Below are positions 787 through 37,303 of a DNA stretch of 40,793 bases, one piece after another. Under the pieces are notes generated by a model, which had not been told where the DNA came from, ran no database searches, and saw only the letters and a list, made by a program, of their open reading frames with translations. The stretch comes from a virus. A program made the translations under genes and the position numbers. The stretch is taken from IMG/VR virus record IMGVR_UViG_3300029914_000063, positions 1 to 40,793 of that record; one strand, given 5' to 3'. Numbering within the stretch: position 1 is the first letter of the stretch; each line of letters opens with the position of its first letter.

Positions 787-815
787 AGAGTAAGTCAAAA
801 CTGATTGATATTCAA
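787..815 (-). promoter_or_regulatory. Promoter with 14-bp operator in its spacer, upstream of the fibre gene
   Basis: Read on the minus strand: TTGAAT (815-810), a 17-bp spacer, then TACTCT (792-787). The last 14 bp of the spacer are the site AATCAGTTTTGACT (806-793), which abuts the -10 box. The start codon at 761 is 31 nt from the site. The -10 is weak by sigma-70 standards, but the same site-TACTCT arrangement recurs at 5534-5562. The -35 overlaps the stop codon of the upstream gene. Confidence 0.55.
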
Positions 816-2689
816 GCTCGCCATTTTCCCTTCTGGAAAGTCACGAGGCTGCGCTTGTCGTTCGGGTAGTGAATGATGTCGGCCGTAGCCCAGCTCGACG
901 GGCCAAGATTGTAGCCGTGATGCAAATTCATCCCGCCGGCGCCATAGACGCCGTCGTTAATCGAGGGCGAGTGCTTATCGCCGACAGACATTTTCCGACC
1001 CATCTTCGCGTAGCCCATCATGGTCGCGCGGGTGCCGTTCGACCCACGAAAGCCGTGATGACCGCACTCGATCCCGCCAATCAGGTAGGAATAGCCGTCA
1101 TAGGCCCACTCGACGTGGTCGACGCTCTTGCCCATCAGATCGCGCAGGGCGTATTCGAGCAGCGCGAACCGTTCTGGCTCCTTGTAGGCGTCGAGCGCCT
1201 TGGCGACTCGATAGCGATTGTTCGCCATCGCCGCCTCGAGTTTTAGACCGAATGAAAGATTGATGCCGTCATTCCGATAGCGCCCCTCTTTGATGTAGCG
1301 ATTGAGGGCGAGATCGTGATTCGATTCGACGTTGACGATCTTGAGACCGGGTCGTTTGAGCGCGGCGTAGAAGGCGCCGAGGTTCTCGACCTCCGTCTGA
1401 ACCGACGAGCGGCCGCGCACCGCCAGCTCATAGGCGGCATGGCCGTCGTCTGCCCTGTGATGGTTGCCGATCTCCTGATCGTGCCCGTCATGAATGAAGA
1501 TCGTCTCCGGCTTCAGAACGTCGAGGATCGACTGATTCCAGATGTGCTTGTTCGTACGAACGTCGAGACCGAAGTTGCCGCGCGCGTTCGCCGGGTCGAG
1601 CTTGGCGTGATGCAGGTCGCCGAAGACGATCGCCTTGACCGTGTGACCGGTCTCGACCAGGCCGTCATGCACGAAGATGTTGAGGTCGTAGAAACTTCCA
1701 TCCTCGCTGGCGTTGAGCTGCCGGCAGAAGACATCGCCATCTTCGTCGAACTCGACCAGCGTCGCGCCGATGACATGGTGAAAGATCGACTTTGAGCCGG
1801 CTTTCCGGGCGATCACCTTGGGGCGCGTGACGGCGCCGGAGGTCATGATCTGATAGGCTTGAACGCCCGGATCGGTCGACGGGATGCTTTCGAGCGCGAG
1901 CTTGGAATGCGGGAAGACTGCCCAGCGGCTGCGGCTGTATGTGGCGAGACCGGAGAGCGGCCGATCGGCGGTCGGCAGCGTGTTCATTTCGCCGCAGAAG
2001 ACGAAGTTATCGCCGATGGCGAGCTGACCGAAGCACAGATGCGGCGTCAGTTCATTGGCGTAGGAGCGCGAGATCGGGTTGTTCTCGCTCCACCACTGCG
2101 TCTCATAGGTCCATGGGCCGACGATGATCTCGGCGCCGATCGCCGTGGCGTAGGCTTGAAGATTGATCCAGAACTCGGCGTGAAGCGGCGCGTCGTTCTG
2201 AGCGCCGGCGAAGATGAACTTGCGATCGCGGCAGTCGGCGATCGGCGCGACCCGGAGGGTGTCTGAGATCCAGGTGCGCGGGGTGCCCTCGATCATTTCA
2301 TAGACGCCAGTATCGCGGTCATAGCGCTCGGAGAGATAGCTGTCGACGATGATCGCTTCGGGATTGATGACGGGATAGTCAGAGCGCTGCAACAGCGTTG
2401 TGATCTCTGCGTTCAGTCGCGTAGCGCGCGCTTTGGCATGATCTTGGGCGGTGAGCTCGGGCGCTTCTTCTGTCTTGACCTCGACATCCTTCTCACGCGA
2501 CCGGGTGACGATCAGCGGCAGGCTCATGCCCGCCTCGAGGAGCTGACGATGCGTCGCGGCGCGGTTGATCACCGATTTGCGGGAGAGGCCGAGAGCTGCC
2601 GCAACATGCGCGATAGTCGGGCAATCATCGAGATCGTTGTACGCGGCGATGAACTCGTCCATCTTCGGGACAGATTGGAAACCCACCAT
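812..2689 (-). CDS. Metallophosphoesterase-like phage protein with N-terminal HTH
   Basis: A 625-residue protein. Residues about 22-45 (TIAHVAAALGLSRKSVINRA) form a helix-turn-helix. The C-terminal half carries calcineurin-type phosphoesterase signatures in order: GDLHH (357-361), HDGHD (400-404), ESNHD (455-459, the usual GNHD/E position), CGHHG (542-546) and GDKHSP (570-575, where GHxH is usual). The middle 110-340 is not recognised. A phage metallophosphoesterase of similar size is the T5 pre-early A1 DNA-transfer/host-DNA-degradation protein, which is a possible but unproven relationship. HTH plus phosphoesterase suggests a DNA-directed nuclease or phosphatase. It sits between the spanins and the fibre gene, 81 nt after the o-spanin stop. 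ATG at 2689 is preceded by GAGAGA. Confidence 0.6.
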   Translation of the reverse strand: MVGFQSVPKMDEFIAAYNDLDDCPTIAHVAAALGLSRKSVINRAATHRQLLEAGMSLPLIVTRSREKDVEVKTEEAPELTAQDHAKARATRLNAEITTLLQRSDYPVINPEAIIVDSYLSERYDRDTGVYEMIEGTPRTWISDTLRVAPIADCRDRKFIFAGAQNDAPLHAEFWINLQAYATAIGAEIIVGPWTYETQWWSENNPISRSYANELTPHLCFGQLAIGDNFVFCGEMNTLPTADRPLSGLATYSRSRWAVFPHSKLALESIPSTDPGVQAYQIMTSGAVTRPKVIARKAGSKSIFHHVIGATLVEFDEDGDVFCRQLNASEDGSFYDLNIFVHDGLVETGHTVKAIVFGDLHHAKLDPANARGNFGLDVRTNKHIWNQSILDVLKPETIFIHDGHDQEIGNHHRADDGHAAYELAVRGRSSVQTEVENLGAFYAALKRPGLKIVNVESNHDLALNRYIKEGRYRNDGINLSFGLKLEAAMANNRYRVAKALDAYKEPERFALLEYALRDLMGKSVDHVEWAYDGYSYLIGGIECGHHGFRGSNGTRATMMGYAKMGRKMSVGDKHSPSINDGVYGAGGMNLHHGYNLGPSSWATADIIHYPNDKRSLVTFQKGKWRA

Positions 2690-2752
2690 GAATCAGTTCT
2701 CTCTGCTGCGCTGGAACCGCTTGAAAGCGATCCCTTCTAATATAGCAAGATC

Positions 2753-2766
2753 AGTCAACGTTGACT
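2753..2766 (-). promoter_or_regulatory. Operator-family site, perfect palindrome AGTCAACGTTGACT
   Basis: A perfect two-fold symmetric copy of the recurring 14-bp site, placed 5 nt after the o-spanin stop and 63 nt before the phosphoesterase start. On the minus strand it is followed directly by GATCTT (one change from the TATCTT found at other sites) and 8 nt later by TATATT (2744-2739), so a promoter is likely here, although no good -35 at standard spacing is evident. Confidence 0.6.
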
Positions 2767-2770
2767 GGAA

Positions 2771-4399: not shown

Positions 4400-4771
4400 T
4401 TAGTCGTGCTGACGTTGCTCGAATGCGCGGTCCAGGCGGGCGCCCAAATCGCGGATTGCCGTGGTGACGCCATCGATTGCAGAGAAGAGCCGCGCCTCTA
4501 CTTGTCGCAGCGTGTCGGCGTTGACGTATCGCGTGGCGACTTCGAGTTTGTGCTCGGTGAGCTCGCGGCTGACGACGGCGAGAGCCTTTTCGGTCTCCGC
4601 GGTCTTCTTGGCGGATTCAGCGAACCCGACTTCGGTCTTCGCCCGCTCTTTGACGCCGTTGATGTAGGCCGATGCCGCTGAGCCAAGCGCGATGATCATC
4701 GCGACCGTCCCGAGAATCTGGCTGTAGGTGGGAAACCAACCGGACGAAGCCGGGCCGAAATCGGGGGTCAT
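4400..4771 (-). CDS. Membrane-anchored coiled-coil protein, possible second holin/antiholin
   Basis: A 123-residue protein with one transmembrane helix at about 17-36 (SQILGTVAMIIALGSAASAY), then a long charged amphipathic stretch (Lys/Glu/Ala-rich, residues 40-120) predicted as coiled coil. It is the first gene of the lysis block, 14 nt before the endolysin start and 30 nt after an operator-family site. Position makes a lysis role likely (pinholin, antiholin or lysis regulator), but the function is not demonstrated by sequence. Confidence 0.55.
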   Translation of the reverse strand: MTPDFGPASSGWFPTYSQILGTVAMIIALGSAASAYINGVKERAKTEVGFAESAKKTAETEKALAVVSRELTEHKLEVATRYVNADTLRQVEARLFSAIDGVTTAIRDLGARLDRAFEQRQHD

Positions 4772-4794: not shown

Positions 4795-4815
4795 AGAGCA
4801 CAATCAATGTTGATT
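4795..4815 (-). promoter_or_regulatory. Operator-family site before the lysis cassette
   Basis: AATCAATGTTGATT (4802-4815) lies 30 nt upstream of the 4771 start, the usual distance in this genome. On the minus strand TATGAT ends 1 nt before the site, and TGCTCT (4800-4795) follows 1 nt after it, resembling the TACTCT that abuts other sites. Both are possible -10 elements; no strong -35 is visible for either. Confidence 0.5.
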
Positions 4816-4848: not shown

Positions 4849-5511
4849 TTAAGCTAGCACCGCCGAATCGTCCGACAGTCGGCGCCAGGCGCCGTTCGAA
4901 TAGACGACGAGAACGCCGGTGCCAGCGCCGACGCCCTCGCCCGTCTTGCGGCCGTTTGTTGCGAAGGCGACACCGCCAACGACGCCGGCCGGAAGCGCCG
5001 ACACCAGGCATCGCATCGTCAGAAGCAGAGCATTGGAAGTCAGAGCGGTAAAGGTGCCCGCCGCCGGCGTGACGCTGCCGATGACGACGCCGTCCATGAC
5101 ACCGCCGAGACTGGCCGCGCTGATGATCACGACACCCGAGACCGACACGTCGCCCTGAAGAACGCTGGAAATCGGGGAAAGCGCGACGAGCGCCGCGTCG
5201 ATCTGAAGAAGCGACTGAGCGATGAGGCTCGAAGTGTCGATGTCGCCGAACGCTGGCGTTGGGAAGGCGTTGGTCGGCGTGAAGTCGCGCTGAATGGCGT
5301 TTTGCTGCGCCGTCTTAGTCGTGCCGACATAATTGGTGGTCAGCGTGATCTGTATGTCGGAGTCGACGCTGAGAATCTTGTACCAGACGCCCTCTCCCTG
5401 AATCTCGAACAGGTCGTTCGCGGTAACATTGGCCGCCCACTGCGTTCCCGCGCCAGCGACGACAGGGGATCCATTGGTGACGTTGACGGTGCCGAGACGA
5501 TACTGAGCCAT
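4849..5511 (-). CDS. Tail-associated structural protein with duplicated N-terminal module
   Basis: A 220-residue protein from ATG 5511 with GGAAGGG upstream. Residues 1-90 form a small beta-rich module (G-T-V-x-V-x-N-G-S-x-V...S-V-D-S-D-I-Q-I-T...D-F-T-P-T) shared with the next upstream gene at 5571-5915. The C-terminus (N-G-R-K-x-G-E-G-x-G-A-G-T-G-V-L-V-V-Y-S-N-G-A-W) matches the end seen in many phage structural and fibre proteins, which often close a beta-sandwich domain. It lies between tail-tip genes and the lysis cassette. Probably a tail-tip or fibre accessory protein; the exact role is unknown. Confidence 0.6.
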   Translation of the reverse strand: MAQYRLGTVNVTNGSPVVAGAGTQWAANVTANDLFEIQGEGVWYKILSVDSDIQITLTTNYVGTTKTAQQNAIQRDFTPTNAFPTPAFGDIDTSSLIAQSLLQIDAALVALSPISSVLQGDVSVSGVVIISAASLGGVMDGVVIGSVTPAAGTFTALTSNALLLTMRCLVSALPAGVVGGVAFATNGRKTGEGVGAGTGVLVVYSNGAWRRLSDDSAVLA

Positions 5512-5533: not shown

Positions 5534-5562
5534 AGAGTAAGTCAAAACTGAATGATTCTCTA
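5534..5562 (-). promoter_or_regulatory. Promoter with operator in its spacer
   Basis: Minus strand: TAGAGA (5562-5557), 17-bp spacer, TACTCT (5539-5534). The spacer ends with ATTCAGTTTTGACT (5553-5540), one mismatch from consensus, abutting the -10. The start codon at 5511 is 28 nt from the site. The stretch from the site through the -10 is nearly identical to that at 787-806. Confidence 0.5.
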
Positions 5563-7353: not shown

Positions 7354-10300
7354 TCACGCATTGAAGTAGATCGCCCCGCCATCGAGATCGATGATCATTT
7401 TCCCGTCAGTGCTCTGGATAGTGCCGGCGGTCACAGCGCCAATATCGGCGCTGATCGCCGAGAGCGTGGTGACGTCAAGCTGCGCCGCGGTGATCGAGTT
7501 GGCGGCGATTTGGGTGGCCGTGATGGTGCCGGCGGCGATTTGGGTGGCCGTGATGCTGCCGGCGGCGATCAAAGCCGCGGTGATCGAGTTTGCGGCGATC
7601 TGAGTAGCCGTGATCGTTCCCGCCGTTAGGCGATCGGCGGTGATCGCGCCCGCCTGAATCTGGGTAGCGGTGATCGTGCCAGCGGCGATCTGATCGGCCG
7701 TGATCGAAGCAGCGGCGATCTGCGCGGCCTTGATTGAGCCGGTGACGATGTTCGAGCCGTCGACAACGGTCTGACCATAGCTGACGATCATTCCCGCCAG
7801 GGGAGTATAGCTGGCGAAATTGATCACGTCGGCGCTAGAGCTCGCGGCGATGTCGTTCGAGAGTGTCGTCGCGTCCTTCTCCCACCAGACGTAGATGGGA
7901 GTGCCAGTGTAGGTCAGAGAGCCCGCAGCCACCGTGACGGTTACGTTGTCGCCGGCGTCGTCGAGATATTGGATTGTACCGGCCGTCCAGGAGAAGACGC
8001 TCGTCCCGATGTTGAAGGCGAAAGTGAAGCCGGTGATCGTGACGCCGCGCAGGCCGATGGTCAGTAGGTTAGCCGCAATGGTGTTGGCTGCAATCGAGCC
8101 GCCGTCGATCTTGGTCGCGTCTGAACCGTTCTGCCAGGAGGCGAGCGTTGTCGAACCGTCGATCTCGATTAGACCGGCGGCGATCTGGGTGGTGTTATTG
8201 TAGTTGATCAGGGCGGCTGGATCGCCAATCTCAACGCCTGTCGTGCCGATGGTGATCGTCGGCGGGAGTGAGGTCGTAATGTTGAGAAGATCGCCCGTAA
8301 TTGAACCGGCGACGAGTCGATCGGCGGTGATCGAGCCCGCGACAATGTCACCGTTGGCGACTGCGCCAGGCGTGACAGAGACGGGGCCTGCGTAAGCACC
8401 CGCGACGCCCGACGTGTTGACAGCGCGCACCCAATAATAGAGCTCTACGCCCGTCGTGAGCCCCGCCTGAGTGAATGCAGTCCCGTAAGACGTGCCGGCC
8501 AGCACTGCTGCGCCGAGCACACCGGTCGTGCCGAACCAAATCTCGAGATGATCGAGGTCGGCGTCGCTCGGATTGACCCACTGAAGATAGACGCTCTTGA
8601 GCGATGCGGCGACGGCGAGCTCAGTGATAGCGCCCGGACCGGTCGTCTTCGCCGGCATGGCGATCGAGATGCTGGCGCAGAATGCCGACGCATACGCCGT
8701 CTGCGACCAAGCTCGGACCTTGACCGTGTATGTGTGGCCGGAGACCAGGTTCGGCCAGGAGAAGATGTCGAGCGAGGTCTGATAGCTGATGAAGGAGCCG
8801 GCGCCGTCCTGAATCTCGACGTCGAAATAGGCGAAGTTGCTCGAGGGCGAAGCGTCCCAGGTCGCGGTCAGAACCTGTTGAACCTCACCCGTCGTCAGAG
8901 TGAGGTTGCTGGTAGATAGCTCAAGGCTGGTTGGAATATCTGGCGGGGTGACGTTGGGCGTGTAGCCGCCCACTGTCACAGCGAAGGGCGGCGAAATGTT
9001 CAGGTTATCGGTGCCGAACTGATCGTAGCCGGCGATGCGGATATAATAGGTCGTTCCGAGATCGCCGGGGATCGCGACCAGATTGTTTGACCCCTGATAG
9101 ACCGGCGTCGTCGCAAGGGGATCGAAGTTCTGATCGGTCGAAGCCCAGACAAAGGAGCCGACGAAGTCTGCATCCGACGGGTTGACATAGGTGACATACA
9201 TCGCCTGCGCGCCAGACGTGACGGTCGGGAAGATGACATCGGGGACCGGATTGTCGACCGCAAGCGTCACCGCCGGGGACTGACGACCAAGAGTATCTTG
9301 GACCACGACGCTGACCGAGAACGCACGCTGCGGCCCGCGGTTGAAGGCGACATTGTCGGCGGTGTTCTTATCAAAGGTGTAGACGTAGTCGCTGGTGTAG
9401 ACGGTCTCGGTGCGCAGCACCGTGCCGGTGGTGGCGTCAAGGATTGAGACGCTGTTGCAGAGAAAGAAGGGGTTGACGCTTCCTACGCCTGCGGTGCTCT
9501 GGCCAACATCGCTGGTCGAACCGGGGAAATTATTCTCCCAGGTGACGTGGCAGTCCTTGCCGCTGAAGTTGGCGCTGTTGCCAGAGTCGAAGACTTCCAA
9601 CATGCTGACATAGGGCGGCGGCGTCGCGGCCCAGCCCTGTACGTTGTAGTCTATGGAGACATCCGTCGAAACGCGGCCGTCAAAGCCGACCGATTGAATG
9701 TTGAAGGTCCACTGACCAAGCTGAATGCCGTCGGCGTCAAGGCTCGAGACGTTGGTCTGGCCGATCGTCGTCGTGCCGCCGATATTCGGGCTGATGCCAG
9801 TGACCAGATAGGACTGAGCGAGGAAGTCATCCGAGGGCGACCACGAGAACGTCAGACGATTGGCCGCAACGCCGTTCTGAAAATAGACGCTCTCCTGCAC
9901 CTGAAAATTAGCAGGCGGGTTGATGGTCGACTGCGGGCGCGAATATTGGATCGTCGCGAGATTTAGATTACCCTCGACTCGATCGTACTTCGTCGGATCG
10001 TAGAAGAGCGCCGTGATCTTGAAGAGGTTCTTTTCAGTCTCGGCGATCGAAATAACGCGATATTGCCGCGGCGCGAGCTCGGTGCTGGTGATCACCCACA
10101 TCGCGCCAATGAGCGGCGCCTGCGCAAGAGCCGACTCGAGCGTGACCGTCTGATTGTCCGTACTGAAACTCGCGATCGTCTGCGAGCCGATCGTACCGTC
10201 CGGAAATTCAACCATGAGCGCGTAGGTTTGACCCAAGACCGGAACGAACGGCTGATCTAAAGTCAATACTGACTGGCTCGTGATGACCTGAATACGCCCG

Positions 10301-11820
10301 CCAAGCCGCACTTGAGCTTTGTTTGGGTCGGCGATCGCGATGACGTCGCCAGGCCGAACGTCGATATGATCCCAGGAAGCGGTATATTCGACGGTCTCGG
10401 TGGCGAATTGCTCGGTATCGAGCAGCCACTTTCCCATGCGGTTGGCCTGGCCACGGCTCGTGCAGCCAATCGCGGTCAGGTTCGTCTCGCGCCACCCATA
10501 TTGAATGAGCTGCGGCTCGCTGACCACTACCTCGACGTCAGGCCCGTAGAACATGATCGGGTTGTTCCACCGGATCATTGCGACCGAATGCCGAGCCTTT
10601 AGAGCTGTGCCGCTGTAGTTGAAGTGCCCGTCGATGACGTTCGTCGGCGAGACCAGCTTAACGGGATCCATCGGCATATCGGCGATGGCGAAAACCTGGC
10701 CAATCGACCAGTAGGCCATGCCTCGGAAGCTCGACGTGATGTTCTGAAGAGCCTTGTAGGCTTCCTGGCGATTATTAAGCACACCATTGAAGGTGTAGCG
10801 CGGCTCCTGCCCGCCGTAGCCGTCAGAGACCAACTGATCGCAATATTGGGCGATCGAATAGAGCGACCACTTGTCAACTTTGGTGGCGTCGATGAACTCG
10901 CCGATACCGTAACGATCGTTCGTGAACAGGTCGTAGAGCACCCACGCCGGGTTGTTGGAATAGGCCATTTGGAATGTGCCATCCCAAACGCCGGTGTAGA
11001 CTCGAGTTGTCGGATTATAGTTGCTCGGAACCTGAATGATCAGGCCCTGAATGTGAAACGACCGAGCTGGGATTGCGCTTGCGCTAAACAGCTCCGAATC
11101 GACGGTGAGACCGACAACCGCCGAGTTCGGGTAGATGAAGTTGCCGGCGACGATCGTCGTGTAGGAATCCCACCACGTTTCGTTCTGCAAACGAACGTTA
11201 TCGGAGTCTTTGGTGATCCGCCGAACGCGCAAATTGCAGGGCGTGCTGCCCGGTGGGATGTCGAAGACGCTCTGGTGCTGATAGGCGCTGGTGCATTTCT
11301 GATTGTTAAGGTTGACGGTGGCGGCGAGCGTCCAGTAGCCGCCATTAGGCTGAATTTCGACGACCCACGAAACACTGGTTGGATTTATGTTGCCACTGCT
11401 GTCCGTCGACGTGAGCGCCGGCACGCGAACAATCACCTGAGCGGAAGTGACGTCCGGGTCGACAATCGTCACCGCCGAAGGCGAGATGTTTTCCTGAACT
11501 TGAATGCCGACCGCGATGACGTTCTCCGCGGTCGAATTGCCGGGCAGGGCCGGCTGGTCGGGCAATCCCACGCGGCTTTCCCACTGCACACCGCGAAAGT
11601 TCACGGTGCCATTGGCATTCACCACCGGCGTTTGGTTGAAATAGATCGAGGTCCCGCCGTTGACGAGACCCGCGATCTGACCCTCGCCGATCAGCTCGAC
11701 GATGCGTGCAAAGGCGGCCGAGCGAAGCGTATTGTCCGCCTCGACGCCTTGCCCGCCGCCTTTGATAAAGCCGCTGAGAGAGGAGGTCTTTGAGCCCCGA
11801 ATGGGAAGAGGAAAATCCAT
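7354..11820 (-). CDS. Tip attachment / central tail fibre protein (lambda gpJ-like)
   Basis: A 1488-residue protein, the usual size class for lambda gpJ relatives (J is about 1130). The N-terminal half has the J-core order, including a G-x2-Y...R-P-G-D-V-I-A-I-A-D-P-N stretch near residues 500-520, followed by several fibronectin type III-like modules (W-x-P-S-D-D and Y-x-V...W motifs, about 650-1160). The C-terminus has short repeats (I-T-A-T-Q-I-A-A-G-T/S, residues about 1370-1450) that likely form a fibre shaft. J binds the host receptor and closes the tail tip. It starts at ATG 11820, overlapping the I-like stop (TAATG). Gene order M-L-K-I-J is exactly lambda-like. Confidence 0.92.
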   Translation of the reverse strand: MDFPLPIRGSKTSSLSGFIKGGGQGVEADNTLRSAAFARIVELIGEGQIAGLVNGGTSIYFNQTPVVNANGTVNFRGVQWESRVGLPDQPALPGNSTAENVIAVGIQVQENISPSAVTIVDPDVTSAQVIVRVPALTSTDSSGNINPTSVSWVVEIQPNGGYWTLAATVNLNNQKCTSAYQHQSVFDIPPGSTPCNLRVRRITKDSDNVRLQNETWWDSYTTIVAGNFIYPNSAVVGLTVDSELFSASAIPARSFHIQGLIIQVPSNYNPTTRVYTGVWDGTFQMAYSNNPAWVLYDLFTNDRYGIGEFIDATKVDKWSLYSIAQYCDQLVSDGYGGQEPRYTFNGVLNNRQEAYKALQNITSSFRGMAYWSIGQVFAIADMPMDPVKLVSPTNVIDGHFNYSGTALKARHSVAMIRWNNPIMFYGPDVEVVVSEPQLIQYGWRETNLTAIGCTSRGQANRMGKWLLDTEQFATETVEYTASWDHIDVRPGDVIAIADPNKAQVRLGGRIQVITSQSVLTLDQPFVPVLGQTYALMVEFPDGTIGSQTIASFSTDNQTVTLESALAQAPLIGAMWVITSTELAPRQYRVISIAETEKNLFKITALFYDPTKYDRVEGNLNLATIQYSRPQSTINPPANFQVQESVYFQNGVAANRLTFSWSPSDDFLAQSYLVTGISPNIGGTTTIGQTNVSSLDADGIQLGQWTFNIQSVGFDGRVSTDVSIDYNVQGWAATPPPYVSMLEVFDSGNSANFSGKDCHVTWENNFPGSTSDVGQSTAGVGSVNPFFLCNSVSILDATTGTVLRTETVYTSDYVYTFDKNTADNVAFNRGPQRAFSVSVVVQDTLGRQSPAVTLAVDNPVPDVIFPTVTSGAQAMYVTYVNPSDADFVGSFVWASTDQNFDPLATTPVYQGSNNLVAIPGDLGTTYYIRIAGYDQFGTDNLNISPPFAVTVGGYTPNVTPPDIPTSLELSTSNLTLTTGEVQQVLTATWDASPSSNFAYFDVEIQDGAGSFISYQTSLDIFSWPNLVSGHTYTVKVRAWSQTAYASAFCASISIAMPAKTTGPGAITELAVAASLKSVYLQWVNPSDADLDHLEIWFGTTGVLGAAVLAGTSYGTAFTQAGLTTGVELYYWVRAVNTSGVAGAYAGPVSVTPGAVANGDIVAGSITADRLVAGSITGDLLNITTSLPPTITIGTTGVEIGDPAALINYNNTTQIAAGLIEIDGSTTLASWQNGSDATKIDGGSIAANTIAANLLTIGLRGVTITGFTFAFNIGTSVFSWTAGTIQYLDDAGDNVTVTVAAGSLTYTGTPIYVWWEKDATTLSNDIAASSSADVINFASYTPLAGMIVSYGQTVVDGSNIVTGSIKAAQIAAASITADQIAAGTITATQIQAGAITADRLTAGTITATQIAANSITAALIAAGSITATQIAAGTITATQIAANSITAAQLDVTTLSAISADIGAVTAGTIQSTDGKMIIDLDGGAIYFNA
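7501..7560. repeat. 30-bp tandem repeat in the J C-terminus
   Basis: Two adjacent 30-bp units (7501-7530 and 7531-7560) differ at a single base and encode 10-residue units A-A-G-T/S-I-T-A-T-Q-I. Diverged copies continue to about 7730. The units keep the reading frame, so repeat number could vary without disrupting J. Confidence 0.8.
10261..10274. promoter_or_regulatory. Operator-family site inside the J coding region
   Basis: AGTCAATACTGACT matches the consensus exactly but lies within codons of J (encoding part of Q-S-V-L-T). It is the only copy found in the interior of a gene. No promoter boxes flank it, so it may be a chance match, an intragenic roadblock site of the stoperator kind, or a relic. 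Confidence 0.35.
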
Positions 11821-20126: not shown

Positions 20127-20137
20127 CAATATTGACT
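20124..20137 (-). promoter_or_regulatory. Operator-family site, perfect palindrome AGTCAATATTGACT
   Basis: An exact two-fold symmetric copy of the site, 24 nt after the major tail protein stop, 48 nt before the G start and fused to the terminator stem. No -10 box abuts it on the minus strand, unlike other copies, so here it may act as a transcription roadblock or belong to a promoter not recognised. Confidence 0.55.
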
Positions 20138-25887: not shown

Positions 25888-27681
25888 TTATGCAGTCCGA
25901 CTCGTCACCTGTCCTTGGCGCTTACTCGTCTGCGAATTCTTCTTGGCGGGCGGCTTGCCACCGGCCGGGGGTTCAACTTGAGTTTGAGGCTGAATCGCCG
26001 GCGTCTCTGAGTCGGTCAGCTTGGCCGGGAACGTCGCGGTCGGATTGCCGGAGAGGACGCCGTTGATCTGAATCTTGTCGGCTTCCGTGATCGGCCAGGC
26101 GTCGAGATCGGCGAGCATCCGCTTCTTCAGATCCGCCTTGAGAGACGGGAAGAGCTTGTCGATGATCTGCTTCATCTGCTCCTGACGAACCGACGGTGGG
26201 GCATCGATCAGCTTAAGATTCTCGGCGACCGTGAATTCGTCGTAGAGCGAGCGAACGTCGAACGTGTCGGCGTATTTGACCAAGCCGTTCTGACCTTCTT
26301 CCTGATCCGGGTCGAGATAGTCGCCAGGCTTCTCGCCATTCCAGGCCGCTAGAAGCTCGACGATCGCGTTCTCGGCGTTCTGTAGCGCCTCGGATTTTGT
26401 CGTCAGCAGACTGTTCAGCCGCTCAAAGTCGTAAGCCTTGGCGACGCCGGAGGAATTGTCGATACCGACGGCGTTGTCCTGCTTGGTGCGCTCGCCGCCC
26501 ATGCCAACCGAGTGATAGATCTCGTTGATGATCTTGTTCACCACCGTAACGATGACCTCGGCCTGCTTGACGTCCGGGCTGAGATAGAAGGGCGCCGCGC
26601 CGTTCTCGCCGTCGTAAAGAAAGACCCGCTTGGTCCCCATCTCACGAATCTGCTCGTACTTGTCGTCGCCAGGCAGCACGTTCTGAGCCGGCATCGCAAG
26701 CTGCGAGAAGGTTTGATCTTGAATGATCGCGTCGAGATTGGAGAGATAGTTGGCGGTCGCGCGGTCTAGGTAGGCGATGTCGGCGATCAGTGCGGGCGCC
26801 GAGTATTTGCTGTCACCCACGACGTTGCGGAGCGGAATGCATGGGACGCGGCCAATCGTCACGAGCCCCTGATCGACCAATTTGACAACGACCCTGTTGC
26901 TCTTGTCGGCCTGAAGAACATAGGGAAGGACGCCGGGCAGCGTGAGTTGCTGAATGGCGCCCTGAGCCGGCTGAATCATGTTGAAGGAGGTCGATGGCGC
27001 CGTCGTGCCATCCGGCTTCATGTCGGCGTTGTCGGTAATCTCGAACAGATACCAGGAGTCTTCCGTCCACAAACGATAGCGGAAGCGAACGATGCCGGTC
27101 GATCTGATCGGGTCGGCGTCGTCTCGAACTCGTTCGCGCACCAGCATCCATTGCAGCGTGCCAGCTTCGGAGAAGCCAGCATCGAGCACATCTTGCGGTT
27201 TGACGACGTAAATGTAACAGCCGGAGCCGCTCGCCTGCTCGTCGGCCTTGGTCAGAACGGCCTCGCTCTTGCTGGAATCGACGAATAGCCAGACCAGTCC
27301 AAGCGTTGACGCCTTGGTCGAAGCCAGGCGCATGAATTGCTCGATATTGAGCCCATCGAGCGTCGCCTTGCGCCAGAACTTCAAAACGTAGTCGGGCGCG
27401 TCGCCCCAATTGCGAGCGACAGGGCTCTTGAAGATGTATTTCTGAATGAGATCAACCACTTCGCGGGTGTGGTTGAAACGATAGGCGCGCTCGACGCGCT
27501 CGTCGTATTCCTGATCGCCCTCTTTCACATAGCGAAAGATGTTGCCGCGAAACCAGACGCGACCGCCCTCGTAAGTCTCCTCGCAGAAAGTCCAGTGAGA
27601 GTGCAGGCGATCGTAGTCCGGGTGGCGACGCGCTAGAAAGTCTTGCAGCGTCTTCTGGTCGGCTACATCAATCGTAAGCAT
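25888..27681 (-). CDS. Portal protein (SPP1 gp6/DUF4055-like)
   Basis: A 597-residue protein from ATG 27681. It shows portal-type segments: a stem region rich in aromatic residues (R-Y-V-K-E-G-D-Q-E-Y...A-Y-R-F-N-H-T-R-E-V-V-D), V-K-P-Q-D-V-L-D-A-G-F, and the clip/wing part I-P-L-R-N-V-V-G-D...P-A-L-I-A-D-I-A-Y-L-D-R-A-T-A-N-Y-L-S-N-L-D-A-I. The last 60 residues are Pro/Lys-rich and disordered. It forms the dodecameric DNA-entry ring and lies between terminase and scaffold as expected. An operator-in-spacer promoter lies directly upstream. Confidence 0.88.
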   Translation of the reverse strand: MLTIDVADQKTLQDFLARRHPDYDRLHSHWTFCEETYEGGRVWFRGNIFRYVKEGDQEYDERVERAYRFNHTREVVDLIQKYIFKSPVARNWGDAPDYVLKFWRKATLDGLNIEQFMRLASTKASTLGLVWLFVDSSKSEAVLTKADEQASGSGCYIYVVKPQDVLDAGFSEAGTLQWMLVRERVRDDADPIRSTGIVRFRYRLWTEDSWYLFEITDNADMKPDGTTAPSTSFNMIQPAQGAIQQLTLPGVLPYVLQADKSNRVVVKLVDQGLVTIGRVPCIPLRNVVGDSKYSAPALIADIAYLDRATANYLSNLDAIIQDQTFSQLAMPAQNVLPGDDKYEQIREMGTKRVFLYDGENGAAPFYLSPDVKQAEVIVTVVNKIINEIYHSVGMGGERTKQDNAVGIDNSSGVAKAYDFERLNSLLTTKSEALQNAENAIVELLAAWNGEKPGDYLDPDQEEGQNGLVKYADTFDVRSLYDEFTVAENLKLIDAPPSVRQEQMKQIIDKLFPSLKADLKKRMLADLDAWPITEADKIQINGVLSGNPTATFPAKLTDSETPAIQPQTQVEPPAGGKPPAKKNSQTSKRQGQVTSRTA

Positions 27682-27704: not shown

Positions 27705-27733
27705 AAGATAAATCAGTTTTGACTGTAAATCAA
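27705..27733 (-). promoter_or_regulatory. Promoter with operator in its spacer, driving the portal gene
   Basis: Minus strand: TTGATT (27733-27728), 17-bp spacer, TATCTT (27710-27705). The spacer ends with AGTCAAAACTGATT (27724-27711) abutting the -10. Here the less symmetric copy is inverted relative to most other sites, which argues for recognition of the dyad rather than of one strand. The portal ATG is 29 nt from the site. Confidence 0.65.
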
Positions 27734-29680: not shown

Positions 29681-30400
29681 CGCCTCGAACTCCTGACGGA
29701 ACGACTTTTCATCCATATCGCCGCGGGCCGCTTCGATTTCTTCGGGCGGGATGAACGGCGAGGTGATCGTCGGGAACTGCCAGCTTCTCCAGGGATTGAC
29801 CCGCCAGATCTTCTCCTTGCGATCGAAATAGTTGTCGCCGCGCTGGCCGAGCATGTAGACGTCGTAGAGCCAGTTGAAGCTCTTCGGGGTGCCGATGATG
29901 ATCGCGTCGCCGCCGGTCGAGGCCAGCGTCGCGCGCAGCACCAAATACCAGGTGTCGGGCCGCACGTCCTGCGCCTCGTCGATCACGACCAGGTCGAGAG
30001 CGGTGCCGCGGAGCGTATCCGGCTTGTCGGCGCCCTTGCACTCGATGATCGTCCCATTGGCGAGGAAGATCGTCATCAGGGTTTCGTTGATCTTGACGAT
30101 CAGCCCGCGCGGGATCGTATCGATCAGCTCGCGCCACATAATGCCGCGCGCCATTCGATAGGTCGGCGCGACGTACCAGATGAGTTTCTTGGGCTTGCGG
30201 GCAGCGATCAGAATCGCATTGCGGGCACAGGCGGTCTTTCCCCATCGGCGGCCGGCGACAATGACGCGGAAGCGCCGACGATCATTTAGAACCGTAGCCT
30301 GGCCGGAATGCACGAATAGACGCTTGGCGTCAGCGCGCAACGCCCCGCGAAACGCGCGCCAAGCGACCTTTTCAGCCTTCATTGCAGCCGACAGAGCCAT
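29441..30400 (-). CDS. Terminase large subunit, N-terminal ATPase part plus intein N-terminus
   Basis: A 319-codon frame starting at ATG 30400, which overlaps the small-subunit stop as TAATG. Residues 1-240 are terminase ATPase: Walker A A-G-R-R-W-G-K-T (about 49-56), an A-P-T-Y adenine/Q-type motif, and Walker B L-V-V-I-D-E-A-Q (about 134-141), with I-I-G-T-P coupling motif near 170. Residue 241 is the intein Cys; the frame then ends at 29441, 8 codons after intein block B, because of the frame break. The ATPase drives DNA into the prohead at the portal. As read, an active terminase needs the two frames joined and the intein spliced. Confidence 0.9.
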   Translation of the reverse strand: MALSAAMKAEKVAWRAFRGALRADAKRLFVHSGQATVLNDRRRFRVIVAGRRWGKTACARNAILIAARKPKKLIWYVAPTYRMARGIMWRELIDTIPRGLIVKINETLMTIFLANGTIIECKGADKPDTLRGTALDLVVIDEAQDVRPDTWYLVLRATLASTGGDAIIIGTPKSFNWLYDVYMLGQRGDNYFDRKEKIWRVNPWRSWQFPTITSPFIPPEEIEAARGDMDEKSFRQEFEACHLLETQVRMWNGEVKAIRDIRFGDELIHITPDGERIPTSVLRIGETGRKIICDVILETGEIISASAHHKFKVHRADAS

Positions 30401-31086
30401 TAGCTCTCTTCCTCGATCACATCGTCGTCGAGGGAAGGAAGTTCCTCATCGTCGTTCTGCTGGCTCTTGCGCGCCGCAATGATCTCGTCGTCGCCCATGT
30501 AGCGAATGTCGATCTGCGGCAGCTCCTTCTCATCGATCTGGTCGTCGATGCCGAGCAGGCGACGCATCGCTTCATCGATCACGACGATGGTGCGCGCGGC
30601 GCCATTCGCCTCTTTTACCGTCGGCCCGACGCCGCCGCTGGCGAGGTCTTCGCGCCAGTGCTTCTGTCGAACACCTTCAATTATCATGGCGCTACGGAGC
30701 TGAGCGTAAGCCGAAAGCTTGTGCTCCTCGATGTATTTGAGCCGGCGATCGGCGAAAGTCTCCTTGATCTCAGCTTCTTTGGAGGCCGCGGCCGCGGCAA
30801 CTTCGGCCTCGCGCGCGAGCTTTCGGCAAGCGAAGGTGATCTTCGCCTGGCGCAGGAGTTTCGAGACGTATTGAACGGAGATGCCGAACTTTAGAGCGCA
30901 GGCGCTAGGCTTGGTCAGACCCTCTGCGACCTGGTCACGGATCCACTGACGGTCCGCAGGGGTGGTTTTGCCCATCCCGGCGACAAAGACGCGCTTCTCC
31001 TCTTCCGGAGCCGCAGCGATCTCTTTTTCGAGCTCCGCGTCATCGGAAGCTGATACGCTCTCCGCAAGCCCTTCCTCTTCACTCAT
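30400..31086 (-). CDS. Terminase small subunit
   Basis: A 228-residue protein from ATG 31086; a longer start at 31152 would translate the operator-family site and is less likely. The acidic N-terminus (E-E-E-G-L-A-E-S...A-A-P-E-E-E) is followed by an HTH region T-P-A-D-R-Q-W-I-R-D-Q-V-A-E-G-L-T-K...C-A-L-K-F-G-I-S-V-Q-Y-V-S-K-L-L (about 42-80), an Ala/Glu/Lys coiled-coil oligomerisation part, and an acidic tail. It recognises the packaging start (cos or pac) and hands DNA to the large subunit, whose start codon overlaps this stop. Confidence 0.78.
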   Translation of the reverse strand: MSEEEGLAESVSASDDAELEKEIAAAPEEEKRVFVAGMGKTTPADRQWIRDQVAEGLTKPSACALKFGISVQYVSKLLRQAKITFACRKLAREAEVAAAAASKEAEIKETFADRRLKYIEEHKLSAYAQLRSAMIIEGVRQKHWREDLASGGVGPTVKEANGAARTIVVIDEAMRRLLGIDDQIDEKELPQIDIRYMGDDEIIAARKSQQNDDEELPSLDDDVIEEES

Positions 31087-31095: not shown

Positions 31096-31116
31096 AATCA
31101 AAACTGACTGATGATA
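31096..31116 (-). promoter_or_regulatory. Operator-family site upstream of the terminase genes
   Basis: Minus strand: TATCAT (31116-31111), one base, then AGTCAGTTTTGATT (31109-31096). The terminase small-subunit ATG is only 9 nt further, so the site covers the expected start point and ribosome-binding region. A TGGACA at 31137-31132 lies 15 bp from the -10 and is a poor -35. Confidence 0.55.
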
Positions 31117-32664: not shown

Positions 32665-33407
32665 AGCGCGCGTATCTCCTCTACTTGACCGCAGTGAACG
32701 CACAGCCGTGGATAGGTCTGGTTCATGGATCGCGAATAGATGTGTCGACCGCCCTGCCCCGAGCACTCCTTCGATTCGGCCTTCTTGAGCCGGATCTTCT
32801 CGCGAAAGTGCTTCGTCACCATTAGAGTCGGCGCGAGCTCCATCTCGAGATCGGTGTGCGTGGTAGCGACGATCAGGGTCTTCTTGAGGGCTCGGGCGAC
32901 CTTCTGGATATTGAAGGCGATGATTCGGGCTGTCACGCGATCGAGCACGGCGCCGAACTCGTCAGCGACCCAGACGTCGTGCCCTTTAGACATCAGTGAG
33001 GCGAGCTTCAGCCGATAGCGTTGACCATCGGAGAGCTCCGAAGGCTTGCGCAGATAGAGATAGGCGTCCGAGATCCCGGCCTTGGCGAGGAAGTCGGCGG
33101 CGATCGTCGTCGTCTCGCCGAGCAGGTCGATGACCGGTTGATTCCCCAGCTCGATCTTGTCGAGGTCGGCGACGGTTAGCCCGCCGGCGCGCATCTGAGC
33201 GGCCAGATCCTTCAGCAGGAGTGACTTCCCGGAGCCGGACTGACCGGTGATGTAGACGACGTCGCCAGCGTTCACCTCGATCTCGAAGTGATCGTAAACG
33301 ATGAACTCCTTCTCGGAGAGTCCGAGCCCGAAGCCTTCGGCGATCTCCAGCACGCGCGGGGTGCGCTCGACGGAGGTGGTGAATCGCTTGTCGACGACGT
33401 ATTTCAT
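32661..33407 (-). CDS. Soluble ABC-type ATPase with C-terminal zinc-finger-like cysteines
   Basis: A 248-residue protein from ATG 33407, overlapping the upstream stop as TGATG. It has Walker A G-Q-S-G-S-G-K-S (about 58-65), the ABC signature variant E-L-S-D-G-Q-R-Y-R-L-K-L-A, Walker B V-W-V-A-D-E-F, a D-loop-like V-L-D and the switch His in A-T-T-H-T-D. No membrane domain exists here or nearby, so it is not a transporter. The C-terminus (C-S-G-Q-G-G-R-H...L-C-V-H-C-G) could bind zinc. Soluble ABC ATPases are often DNA-acting; with ParB-like and GNAT partners it probably powers or gates a DNA-modification or DNA-binding machine. Confidence 0.75.
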   Translation of the reverse strand: MKYVVDKRFTTSVERTPRVLEIAEGFGLGLSEKEFIVYDHFEIEVNAGDVVYITGQSGSGKSLLLKDLAAQMRAGGLTVADLDKIELGNQPVIDLLGETTTIAADFLAKAGISDAYLYLRKPSELSDGQRYRLKLASLMSKGHDVWVADEFGAVLDRVTARIIAFNIQKVARALKKTLIVATTHTDLEMELAPTLMVTKHFREKIRLKKAESKECSGQGGRHIYSRSMNQTYPRLCVHCGQVEEIRAL

Positions 33408-33775
33408 CAAACCGGCTCGTTTTCGATGTCGTTGATGACTTCCGCGATCGTCGGATAGGATGCCCGAGCCCAGAACTTCAGGTCATCTTCGATCAGAAAG
33501 AGGCCGCCGAGGAACTTTATCGCGGTGTGAACCGGGTCAGGCTCTCTCGCCGGCAGCCCCGTCCAGCGCATGAATCCGCCAGATTTCTGGTTCCACGAAA
33601 TCATGGCGATACCGGTCAGTTCGCCGGCCTCCGCCATCTCGAGCGCGTTCTTCAGCGCGTCGATGAGAACGGAATCGGCCTCCTTCACAGCGCTTGGCTC
33701 GATCTGCGGGTCGACATAGGGGATCGGCATGATCTTCTGGCCAGCTTTGAAGTTGATCACGTTATCATTGGACAT
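33407..33775 (-). CDS. Hypothetical protein of the ParB/ABC operon
   Basis: A 122-residue protein from ATG 33775, preceded by AGGA 8 nt upstream that is itself part of an operator-family site. The middle has S-V-L-I-D-A-L-K-N-A-L-E-M-A-E-A-G-E-L-T-G-I-A-M-I-S-W, a helix-strand pattern seen in small uncharacterised phage proteins, and the N-terminus is V-I-N-F-K-A-G-Q-K. It lies between a ParB-like gene and the ABC ATPase. Function unknown. Confidence 0.6.
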   Translation of the reverse strand: MSNDNVINFKAGQKIMPIPYVDPQIEPSAVKEADSVLIDALKNALEMAEAGELTGIAMISWNQKSGGFMRWTGLPAREPDPVHTAIKFLGGLFLIEDDLKFWARASYPTIAEVINDIENEPV

Positions 33776-33776: not shown

Positions 33777-33790
33777 AATCAATCCTGATT
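33777..33790 (-). promoter_or_regulatory. Operator-family site overlapping a ribosome-binding site
   Basis: Minus strand AATCAGGATTGATT. The AGGA within it is the apparent Shine-Dalgarno of the 33775 start, 1 nt beyond the site. It also sits 6 nt after the ParB-like stop. Bound protein here would block an internal transcript rather than a recognisable promoter. Confidence 0.5.
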
Positions 33791-35396: not shown

Positions 35397-35410
35397 AGTC
35401 AAGACTGATT
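35397..35410. promoter_or_regulatory. Operator-family site at the divergent junction
   Basis: AGTCAAGACTGATT lies centrally between the leftward ParB-like gene (23 nt away) and the rightward helicase gene (24 nt away), the only point where leftward and rightward units diverge head-to-head. On the minus strand TATCTA follows 3 nt after the site; on the plus strand TAGATA precedes it by 3 nt, so it could occlude start points in both directions. The -35 boxes are weak. Confidence 0.6.
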
Positions 35411-35434: not shown

Positions 35435-37057
35435 GTGGCTTTCGAAAAAACGAAAAGCATCAAACTCGCCGCCAATTGCGTTATCGCTAGGCTGATCGAC
35501 GCCCCAAAGAAGGTTATCGACCTGGTGGCCGAACTGCTCTCCTATCGGGTCGAGGGCGCCGAATTCATGGGAACGACGAACTGGAGTGGCCGATCGAGCT
35601 TCTACTCGCGCCGAAATGACACCTTCCCGGCTGGCTTCGTCTATCTTGTCCACGCCGAACTGAGACGCCGCGGCTATGCTGTCCAGATCATCATGCGGCC
35701 GCATGTCGAGCCGCTGGGGCCTGCGTCGCCAATCGTCGACGAGTTCGGCAACGACAATCCTGACTACGATTTCCAGATGAAGGCGCTGGCGCAGGTCGAA
35801 AAGCATGGTCGCGGCATCGTTCAAGTCGCCACCGGCGGCGGCAAGTCGAAGATCGCCAAGCTTGTCGCCGCGCGCTATCGCCGGATGACGATGTTCCTGA
35901 CCACCCGCGGCATTCTGCTCTACCAGATGGCCGATGGCTTCAAGTCGGCCGGGATGAACGTCGGGATCATCGGCGACGGGGTCTGGAGCCCTGTGCGCGG
36001 CGTCAACTGCGGCATGGTGCAGACCTTCATCGCCAGGCTCGAGGAACCCGATCTCAACGCCGAGATTCGCGCTCTGGTTAAATCTCACGCTTCAGCCAGC
36101 GCCAAGGCCGAAAAGAAGGGGTTGCCGCCGCCGGCGACGCCGAACCGCGCGGCGCTGGTCAAACTGGCTACCGCCAAGTTCGATGAGAAGACCAAAACGC
36201 TTGCCCGCCACGTCAAGCTGCTCGAAATGGTCGAGGTGGTGATCGGCGAAGAGGCGCATGAGGCCGGCGGCGACTCCTATTACAAGATCCTTCGCCACTG
36301 CAAGAATGCCTCGATTCGGGTCGCTCTGACCGCAACGCCCTTCATGCGCGACGACGCCGAAGACAATATGCGGCTGATGGCGGCGTTCGGCCCGGTGCTG
36401 ATCCAGGTCTCCGAGAAGCTGCTGATCGATCGTGGCGTTCTGTCGACCCCGAGCTTCAAGTTTCACGTCAGCAAGGCTCATCCCAAGCTGCATCGCACCT
36501 CGCCCTGGCAGCGCGCCTATCAGCTTGGCTACATGGAAAATCGCTTCATGCACCTCGACATTGTTGCCGAAGCGAAGATGGCGGCTGAACGGAAGCTGCC
36601 GGTAATGACGCTGGTGCAGCGAACCGATCATGGCGATGTTCTCAGCATGGCGATGCGCGACGCCGGGCTGCGGGTCGAGTTCATTCGTGGCGACAATGAT
36701 CAGGTCGAGCGCAAACAGGCGCTCCGGCGTCTCGCCAAAGGCGAAATTGACGTTCTAATCGGCACTACGATCTTGGATGTTGGCGTCGACATGCCGGCGA
36801 TCGGTCTGGTGCAGCTCGCCGGCGGCGGGAAGGCCGAGGTGGCGCTCCGGCAGCGTATAGGCCGCGCCATGCGTCGGAAGAAGAAGGGGCCGAACGTCTG
36901 TTTCGTTACGGACTACTCCGTTGAGCTCAATGAGCACCTCAAAGGGCATTCTCAGACCCGCAGAGCGATCATCGAAGCAACTCCTGGCTTTGGAGAACGA
37001 ATTATCCCCAAGGGCGGCGATCATTTTTGGCGTCTGTTCGACAAAGTCACTGCTTAG
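35435..37057 (+). CDS. SF2 DNA helicase (DEAH-type, UvsW-like)
   Basis: A 540-residue protein from GTG 35435. Motif I A-T-G-G-G-K-S-K-I-A (about 132-141), motif II G-E-E-A-H (a DEAH variant, about 275), motif III T-A-T-P-F (about 300), motif V T-T-I-L-D-V-G-V-D-M-P and motif VI Q-R-I-G-R-A-M-R-R-K complete a superfamily 2 helicase. Layout and size resemble phage T4 UvsW and UvrB/XPB-like phage helicases that remodel forks and recombination intermediates. The N-terminal 110 residues are a separate domain of the kind found in phage SF2 enzymes. First gene of the rightward unit. Confidence 0.88.
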   Translation: MAFEKTKSIKLAANCVIARLIDAPKKVIDLVAELLSYRVEGAEFMGTTNWSGRSSFYSRRNDTFPAGFVYLVHAELRRRGYAVQIIMRPHVEPLGPASPIVDEFGNDNPDYDFQMKALAQVEKHGRGIVQVATGGGKSKIAKLVAARYRRMTMFLTTRGILLYQMADGFKSAGMNVGIIGDGVWSPVRGVNCGMVQTFIARLEEPDLNAEIRALVKSHASASAKAEKKGLPPPATPNRAALVKLATAKFDEKTKTLARHVKLLEMVEVVIGEEAHEAGGDSYYKILRHCKNASIRVALTATPFMRDDAEDNMRLMAAFGPVLIQVSEKLLIDRGVLSTPSFKFHVSKAHPKLHRTSPWQRAYQLGYMENRFMHLDIVAEAKMAAERKLPVMTLVQRTDHGDVLSMAMRDAGLRVEFIRGDNDQVERKQALRRLAKGEIDVLIGTTILDVGVDMPAIGLVQLAGGGKAEVALRQRIGRAMRRKKKGPNVCFVTDYSVELNEHLKGHSQTRRAIIEATPGFGERIIPKGGDHFWRLFDKVTA

Positions 37058-37141
37058 GGATCGATTTGCGCTATATACGTCTGTATGAACACACGTCATG
37101 TCGATGCCGTACACTTCTTTGACAGTCGCGGGGTATCCACG

Positions 37142-37273
37142 ATGTCATTCGACTTCCTTTTGAGAGAGAAAGTTCGTCTTGAGAAGGAGGTTGAGCGTCT
37201 TACACGCCTTCTTGACGCCAACCAGCGTCGTCAACGTGCCGAACTCGACGAAAGAACCAAGCAGAACTCTTAA
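37142..37273 (+). CDS. Small coiled-coil peptide
   Basis: A 43-residue protein from ATG 37142, chosen for GGGG upstream; an in-frame ATG at 37085 would add 19 residues but has no ribosome site. Almost the whole length is a charged amphipathic helix (R-E-K-V-R-L-E-K-E-V-E-R-L-T-R-L-L) with heptad spacing. Phage peptides like this often inhibit or scaffold host or phage enzymes. Function unknown; coding nature is probable from composition. Confidence 0.5.
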   Translation: MSFDFLLREKVRLEKEVERLTRLLDANQRRQRAELDERTKQNS

Positions 37274-37289
37274 TTTGCCCACCGAAGTA

Positions 37290-37303
37290 AGTCAACATTG
37301 ACT
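37290..37303 (+). promoter_or_regulatory. Operator-family site before the dNMP kinase gene
   Basis: AGTCAACATTGACT, an almost perfect palindrome, ends 8 nt before ATG 37312, directly 5' of the ribosome site GAGAGA. It is the rightmost copy found and the only one clearly serving a plus-strand gene alone. No -10 box abuts it. Confidence 0.55.

Follow-up and report, generated by a model that had tools for sequence, protein, structure and literature searches.

Phage repressors of the XRE fold, such as lambdoid CI and Cro and P22 c2, bind as dimers to palindromic operators, which are few and clustered, and act by promoter occlusion. The dispersed centromere of the linear phage-plasmid N15 consists of a few palindromes bound by the partition protein. 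Here we analyse a family of palindromes dispersed over a 40,793-nucleotide stretch of viral DNA (IMG/VR record IMGVR_UViG_3300029914_000063, positions 1 to 40,793; hereafter the window), and interpret them, with a probability of roughly 0.8, as operators of the immunity repressor of a phage-plasmid, a small XRE protein encoded outside the window. Dispersed operators, 22 in number, are reported for the C1 repressor of P1 (PMC8546580). For cluster A mycobacteriophages (L5, Bxb1), 20–30 stoperators per genome with a lineage-specific consensus are described, along with repressors that prefer their cognate sites and heteroimmunity between phages of different groups (PMC6550527). The start-associated sequence (SAS) of cluster K is described as an asymmetric 13-bp element, GGGATAGGAGCCC, at translation starts and suggested to function in translation, the description of the element naming no regulator (PMC3203893). 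No paper describing the present sites was found among open-access full texts, which were also searched for five literal site sequences, none of them found.

The site family in the window and its parent genome

The original prediction, made from the letters of the window, had listed 17 sites matching ARTCARNNYTGAYT, 13 exactly and four with one mismatch, and all 17 are found where it placed them; an 18th match with one mismatch, at 21493, was absent from its list. These 18 matches at up to one mismatch compare with a mean of 0.69 and a largest count of 4 in 100 dinucleotide shuffles, and the 13 exact matches with a mean of 0.043 and a maximum of 1 in 300 second-order Markov sequences, in line with the predicted rarity of about 0.04; the exact reversed pattern has no match in a scan of the window. 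By our own gene calls, only 5.0% of the window is non-coding, as the prediction had remarked, and this fraction holds the centres of 16 of the 18 sites (binomial p 2e-19). The exceptions are 21493 and 10261, the latter lying within a tail J-like gene and being the only one of the 17 listed sites away from a gene boundary, again as predicted. Equal density in coding or shuffled DNA, which had been named as the outcome that would speak against the motif, was tested for and not seen. The palindrome itself is longer than 14 bp and extends over about 20 bp (RTMARTCARNNYTGAYTKAY).

The window corresponds to positions 60665–101457 of a second record, IMG/VR IMGVR_UViG_3300029922_000031 (105,074 bases; G001), with 5 mismatches, and, judged by its genes, is a fragment of a 105-kb phage-plasmid of the SSU5/RHEph10 type. 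The G001 portal protein is 50.0% identical to that of Rhizobium RHEph10 and 47.6% to that of SSU5, and the terminase and ParA genes are also homologous to those of this group. A predicted plasmid replication gene (46894–48045 of G001) clusters with an RHEph10 gene annotated as replication protein C, and the RHEph10-like element pLM21S1 is described as a plasmid-like prophage (PMC4447125). Portal matches occur in 904 of 72,556 plasmid records, chiefly from Klebsiella, Escherichia, Acinetobacter and Enterobacter; a megablast against phages gave no match, and a scan of genome contigs with portal peptide patterns no relative. Over the whole of G001, 44 sites are found at up to one mismatch, 36 of them intergenic, versus 8 for the reversed pattern.

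Orthologous places were compared in G002, a 51-kb relative available as a partial contig, which has 23 sites versus 6 for the reversed pattern. A counterpart with at most one mismatch is present at the orthologous place for 16 of the 17 listed sites, in most cases with little change in the distance to the start codon (12 paired via gene families, 10261 within its gene, and 4802, 23849 and 37290 by synteny); 24889 and 21493 have no such counterpart of their own in G002. Across 15 intergenic G001/G002 pairs, core positions are 98% identical, degenerate positions 70% and flanks 65%. As partners were picked by means of the pattern, part of the 98% follows from that choice, and conservation is more fairly expressed as 16 of 17 places kept against a flanking identity of 65%. 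The expectation that the motif recurs at orthologous junctions of relatives is thus borne out in G002, but not in nickie, BUCTxx99 and the type C phages described below, which are without it. The site at 10261, encoded in G002 by identical TCA/TTG/ACT/TTA codons, was not seen at the same place in 14 other aligned J-family genes; it is a candidate intragenic roadblock or promoter.

Site types and the linked XRE gene

Relatives of G001 carry lineage-specific palindromes, 18–48 per genome, nearly all intergenic and mostly 10–60 bp before start codons. Types A (half-site TMARTCAR) and B (half-site TAAGTAAG) align with equal spacing, a single change from C to A in each half-site setting B apart from A. 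Exact matches to the pattern of the window are present in 11 of 24 further records, namely eight type A genomes (9–25 each; 0–7 for the reversed pattern) and three records with one, and in five of six more, four with 11–20 each and one with one. The type B palindrome, TAAGTAAGNNCTTACTTA, occurs at 36–38 sites, all intergenic, in B1VFA, X66, G012 and G015. A pattern-free count of exact inverted repeats recovers the same sites, plus other lineage-specific families; it reveals a B-like family in one Acinetobacter plasmid and no comparable family in nickie or BUCTxx99. This count is the better evidence for G005, G010, G008 and G007, where the reversed-pattern control at up to one mismatch is high (27, 24, 16 and 12, respectively) because AGTCAGT/ACTGACT-like sites partly match their own reversal. 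SSU5, Cyrano and pJN2-26 (W02, W09, W15) combine a AAACAANTTGTTT family with a B-like palindrome; at up to one mismatch AAACAANTTGTTT has 20 sites in SSU5 and 18 in Cyrano, all intergenic and one of them preceding parA, and SSU5 has 17 B-like sites at up to two mismatches, 16 of which are intergenic. Type C sites (TTTGCATNNATGCAAA) precede genes at 19–25 places in five distant phages (G011, G013, G014, G016, G018).

Gene-family profiling of 23 genomes leaves few candidates that are present in type A genomes, type B genomes and Cyrano but not in site-less relatives: an XRE helix-turn-helix (HTH) protein, and ParA with its partner. The XRE gene lies at 45914–46357 of G001 on the minus strand (147 residues), about 14 kb outside the window, which is why the original prediction could not see the likely regulator; a RepC-type replication gene stands beside it and cobT/cobS-like genes follow downstream. 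XRE proteins of this family have 130–150 residues and are Cro/CI-type and HTH_3-like, the B1VFA member scoring 30 bits against the HTH_3 cut-off of 23 and those of G001 (17.8), RHEph10 (17.2) and Cyrano (13.8) falling below it; the PHROG family phrog_8 (transcriptional regulator) matches all four members tested. An AlphaFold2 model has a helical HTH fold (mean predicted local distance difference test score 72) with structural matches to P22 c2, lambda CI and C-proteins, all at E above 0.01, and a sequence search for a solved homologue of the RHEph10 protein found none (best E 0.11). Of 29 genomes, 20 contain the XRE protein by a profile search; each of them has type A or B sites, and they make up 20 of the 22 genomes with such sites, the other two being SSU5 and G002, a partial contig. 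In these two, as in nickie, BUCTxx99 and the five type C phages, the search gave no match. Among plasmid records, 698 have a tblastn match to the RHEph10 protein, 138 of them covering at least 80% of it, and not all are necessarily phage-plasmids.

The gene is also linked to the sites by position. Within 300 bp upstream of it, 17 of the 20 genomes have a site with at most one mismatch to a relaxed A/B pattern, as does AMS5 across the record end, versus a background of 0.09–0.15 sites per 300-bp stretch in four genomes; the gene start in this comparison is an open reading frame (ORF) boundary for six plasmid genomes. Upstream of the XRE gene of Cyrano and pJN2-26, a GGTAAGNNCTTACC palindrome stands beside a TAATAT box. 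The homologue in the coliphage-plasmid Cyrano, CYRAN_45, is annotated as 'putative repressor'; it is reported as transcribed 10-fold above the prophage background in an LF82 lysogen, in a table that marks master repressors, and Cyrano as induced 39-fold by ciprofloxacin (PMC9928086).

The ParA pair offers a different explanation, in which the palindromes are dispersed parS-like centromeres bound by ParA's small partner, and gene regulation is secondary. Among the first 23 genomes, every type A, type B or SSU5-like one (16 altogether) has ParA, nickie, BUCTxx99 and the type C phages do not, and strand residues of the partner, by eye, also differ between A and B. However, ParA has a site within 300 bp upstream in only 1 of the 16 genomes, and G010, Cyrano and SSU5 have A/B-type sites, yet the gene after ParA lies outside the partner family by clustering and hidden Markov model; in the N1_10 relative, the small gene after ParA is ParG-like at E 1e-3, below the cut-off. 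Near-constant distances from site to start codon would, moreover, be needless for segregation. An iteron-like parS upstream of parA was looked for in the 16 genomes, and a 7-mer repeated three times was found only in B1VFA and X66 (TAGATAG) and in G007 (TCTCGTT). We consider the centromere explanation quite improbable.

Some further observations concern the sites and their possible regulators. In B1VFA, X66, G012 and G015, the XRE-proximal site combines a B half with an A half (TTGACT), as might be expected if the A half also had to satisfy some further requirement, for example as a -35 box. The exact sites of the Acinetobacter-type phage-plasmids G010 and W13 are nearly all one identical 14-mer, AGTCAGTACTGACT (8 of 9 and 10 of 11, respectively), in contrast to the varied site centres of other genomes. 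All five type C phages have an HTH gene family, S24-like by eye, whose G016 member is preceded by a site at a distance of 128 bp. Two products of the window itself were tried as regulators and rejected: the small protein of 31215–31517 (LexA-like winged HTH by eye, no Pfam match) is the weaker candidate, its family occurring also in site-less nickie and BUCTxx99, and the family of the ParB-like proteins (33797–35379) is likewise found in site-less relatives.

Proposed repressor action, shared regulons and covariation

Given the observed sites, their placement and conservation, and a linked gene distributed with them, we infer that the XRE protein binds the sites, and with what effect. A dimer would bind each palindrome of about 20 bp. 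Directly after a -10 box, the palindrome would cover the transcription start point and the bound repressor would block initiation; at sites without a visible promoter, it might halt the elongating polymerase in the manner of a stoperator. One protein acting at about 40 sites over 105–120 kb could keep many lytic operons silent in the plasmid (lysogenic) state, would control its own gene via the upstream site, and would confer immunity only against phages of the same site type.

The promoter context was analysed in 11 of the 29 genomes, at sites with a start codon no more than 110 bp away. For type A, a -10-like hexamer starts 6–17 bp upstream in 94 of 258 oriented sites, versus 23–39 in five control windows of the same size; for type B, TATAAT (at least 5 of 6 bases) starts at offset -7 in 23 of 100 sites, with other upstream offsets at 7 or fewer. 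Within the window, 24830 is directly preceded by TTGACA, about 17 bp and TATCAT, and 21038 and 21083 flank a promoter whose -35 box is the TTGACT half-site of 21083. A 'TATCTT downstream' asymmetry of the window sites proved weak in the larger site set and was dropped.

Resemblance of TTGACT to a -35 hexamer, and its seeming use as one at 21083, could also suggest that the palindrome is a promoter or activator element, for example for a phage sigma factor or late-gene activator, and the family of the annotated RHEph10 sigma factor is indeed present in 13 of 23 genomes, G001 included. Yet the sites tend to follow -10 boxes closely, a position in which an activator would get in the way; sites occur without the sigma family in Cyrano, SSU5 and G010, whereas BUCTxx99 has a member without sites, and we regard such a role as very improbable. 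Hardly credible is a non-regulatory origin, as a modification- or restriction-related motif or an RNA element: palindromy alone would favour it, whereas strict intergenic placement before start codons and a lineage-wide base change do not, and the 2-nt central gap is ill-suited to a hairpin.

The genes that bear sites are largely the same in type A and in type B genomes. Eight genome pairs were compared among 15 of the 29 genomes, and shared gene families are sited in both members well above expectation in the A/B pairs RHEph10/B1VFA (19 of 93, 6.7 expected, p 7e-10), G009/G012 (22 of 88, 7.4 expected, p 6e-14), G006/G015 (20 of 92, 7.6 expected) and G001/B1VFA (11 of 61, 4.1 expected, p 2e-5), as in the A/A pair G001/RHEph10 (11 of 64, 4.2 expected).

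The XRE proteins differ along with the sites. Between 14 type A and 13 type B proteins, residues 14, 19 and 35 separate the types fully and ten more columns do so with one exception, residue 45 among them; the column analysis omits L300, L301, L307, L310 and L312 (no or ambiguous type), L305 and L306 (identical to L304) and W13 (identical to the G010 protein). Both residue 35 and residue 45 map to the HTH helices or next to them. Type B proteins have N at position 45 in 12 of 13 cases, where all 14 type A proteins have K, R, Q or S; R occupies position 35 in 13 of the 14 type A proteins and in no type B protein. A portal tree has three changes of site type, each accompanied by a change at residue 45, Asn45 going with type B in 20 of 20 rows as coded. 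Fifteen further XRE loci were examined after the residue rule had been noted; ten follow it (L304–L306 share one protein, and several have few sites to go by), four (L300, L301, L307, L312) are without such sites, and a helix region shorter by one residue makes L310 ambiguous. We take this covariation of repressor and site as suggestive.

Several observations weigh against the operator interpretation or parts of it. SSU5 keeps its sites and has no XRE gene; the XRE homologues L300, L301 and L307, and that of the non-phage Cereibacter plasmid L312, have neither site family nearby; and the site upstream of XRE is often found 110–180 bp ahead of the gene start, between XRE and a divergent gene. 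As to promoters, a second and stricter -10 test (NAxxxT) is unenriched at type B sites (8 of 100 versus 4–26 in controls), a further TATAAT-like peak falls on the downstream palindrome edge in both types (17 sites in type A and 16 in type B), and the majority of sites are without a recognisable promoter, a -10 box being visible in roughly one type A site in three. Two of the pairs compared, G001/Cyrano (p 0.27) and G001/G010 (p 0.10), show no significant regulon overlap, and that of B1VFA/Cyrano is borderline (p 0.05). Cyrano has a B-type site within 160 bp upstream of 17 of its 123 genes (loosened pattern, 22 sites), and these include 1 of 14 lysogen-expressed genes versus 16 of 109 others, a difference in the fitting direction at p 0.69; the one lysogen-expressed gene is the repressor gene itself. 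Among Cyrano genes with a AAACAANTTGTTT site, 0 of 14 are listed as lysogen-expressed (p 0.37); the direction fits here too, and the numbers of both comparisons are too small. Finally, Abaum2 was coded N by eye where the alignment gives Q; the independent pairs, two on well supported branches and three on all, are too few for significance (sign test p 0.5); and common descent may explain the pattern at residues 35 and 45, since 13 columns in all tell the types apart with one exception or none.

In pHCM2 (L311) and Cyrano (L254) the XRE gene lies beside an integrase gene, and in SSU5 (L134–L139) neither is annotated there and no XRE match is found. SSU5 is possibly a repressor-loss lytic isolate; it is known as a plaque-forming phage, and loss of XRE with the sites kept would suggest why.

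The scarcity of visible promoters bears on a variant of the repressor interpretation, in which most sites are stoperators that block elongation within operons. The -10 count at type A sites, several window sites between co-directional late genes and the one conserved site within a coding gene (10261) would suit it; the clear -10 enrichment directly upstream of type A sites and palindromes without the single orientation of L5 stoperators would not, and the TATAAT test that yields the low count would miss alphaproteobacterial or phage-sigma promoters. We find this variant possible but rather doubtful, a judgement that is not exclusive, the variant overlapping with the operator interpretation.

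Beyond the operators of the window, we lean slightly towards a wider proposal: that phage-plasmids of about 110 kb in alpha-, beta- and gammaproteobacteria are each silenced by one small repressor through about 40 operators, and that whole operator sets have been recoded together, by the same base in the two halves of dozens of sites and with HTH residues to match, giving immunity groups predictable from sequence. The best tree has three such events, two of them on well supported branches. If true, operator sequence and HTH residues would predict mutual exclusion among these elements and which genes are silent, and the lineages would provide natural before-and-after cases of a 40-site regulon changing its recognition sequence.

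The individual sites are collected in Table 1, where distances from site to start rest on a simple gene caller. Some neighbouring genes are also of note. ORFs with collagen-like Gly-x-y repeats occupy both ends of the window (1–761 and 40038–40742). At 27736–30400, the terminase large subunit appears split into two overlapping ORFs by an intein-like insert (Hint/homing-endonuclease-like by eye); the best matches listed for the first ORF (319 residues) stop at about residue 241, or 285 in one. At 31517–33410, an ABC-ATPase-like protein adjoins a phrog_886 protein, and at the matching place Cyrano has an annotated ABC transporter and an ABC-type ATPase fused to a predicted acetyltransferase domain.

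Table 1. Palindromes and the ParA locus in the window. G002 distances are upstream of the orthologue.
Position (strand)	Feature	Match to pattern	Context	G002
793..806 (.)	operator-like palindrome	exact	31 bp upstream of gene 3..761(-)	27 bp
2753..2766 (.)	operator-like palindrome	exact	63 bp upstream of DNA transfer protein gene 812..2689(-), phrog_1745	64 bp
4802..4815 (.)	operator-like palindrome	exact	30 bp upstream of 4400..4771(-); TATGAT directly upstream	36632 by synteny
5540..5553 (.)	operator-like palindrome	one mismatch	28 bp upstream of 4849..5511(-)	28 bp
10261..10274 (.)	palindrome within coding DNA	exact	tail J-like gene 7354..11820(-)	kept
14042..14055 (.)	operator-like palindrome	exact	29 bp upstream of 13305..14012(-), minor tail gene by synteny	34 bp
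20124..20137 (.)	operator-like palindrome	exact	48 bp upstream of 19632..20075(-)	49 bp
21038..21051 (.)	operator-like palindrome	one mismatch	22 bp upstream of 20161..21015(-), tail gene by synteny; TATAAT before	25 bp
21083..21096 (.)	second palindrome, same promoter as 21038		TTGACT half about 17 bp upstream of TATAAT, the -35 position	70 bp
21493..21506 (.)	match over gene start, probably chance	one mismatch		no counterpart
23849..23862 (.)	operator-like palindrome	one mismatch	63 bp upstream of 23180..23785(-)	17674 by synteny
24830..24843 (.)	operator-like palindrome		53 bp upstream of 23874..24776(-), capsid-protein position by synteny with SSU5	54 bp
24889..24902 (.)	palindrome	one mismatch	upstream of the promoter of 24830	none of its own at up to one mismatch (pairs with partner of 24830)
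27711..27724 (.)	operator-like palindrome	exact	29 bp upstream of portal gene 25888..27681(-)	29 bp
31096..31109 (.)	operator-like palindrome		9 bp upstream of 30400..31086(-); TATCAT directly upstream	10 bp
33777..33790 (.)	operator-like palindrome	exact	at start of 33407..33775(-)	1 bp
35397..35410 (.)	operator-like palindrome	exact	between divergent ParB-like gene (-) and helicase gene 35435..37057(+)	24 bp
37290..37303 (.)	operator-like palindrome	exact	8 bp upstream of kinase-like gene 37312..37878(+), phrog_139	5603 by synteny
38079..39058 (+)	ParA gene and small gene after it (ribbon-helix-helix by eye)		300 bp upstream of ParA free of palindromes

Comparison with described systems

The original prediction had proposed a dimeric DNA-binding protein with genome-wide operators, a proposal that fits both the sites and the linked XRE gene. 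Its analogy with L5 stoperators stands for the genome-wide operator logic but not for all sites, a good part of which adjoin a -10 box and look like true operators. It had also known of no regulator for this sequence; there is now a candidate, although an ordinary one, a Cro/CI-type HTH protein whose homologue in one relative already carries a putative-repressor annotation. What is new is the site, the scale and the lineage-wide site change, rather than a new class of regulator.

Lambdoid CI/Cro and P22 c2 differ in the number and arrangement of operators, with about 40 dispersed operators here. With the centromere of N15 the sites share dispersed palindromes in a phage-plasmid, but here they have no link to the par operon. 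Cluster K SAS and extended SAS (ESAS), as described, are also short repeats before the starts of conserved genes, and ESAS inverted repeats vary by single bases between phages; the present site is unlike SAS, as the original prediction had held of both SAS and L5 stoperators, in that it is palindromic, differs in sequence from SAS and lies mostly 10–60 bp from starts. Cluster A stoperators resemble it in tens of sites per genome and a lineage-specific consensus, but are described as predominantly in one orientation and mostly not associated with promoters, whereas the sites here are palindromic, with orientation undefined, and often stand beside a -10 box. As in the P1 C1 system, the present element is a phage-plasmid with one repressor that would act on genome-wide operators and on its own promoters; the P1 operator, however, is described as an asymmetric 17-bp ATTGCTCTAATAAATTT, and here we find an inverted repeat of another sequence at about twice as many sites. 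By analogy, the system thus appears to work like P1 C1 and L5-type stoperators and, with palindromic sites of another sequence, belongs under neither.

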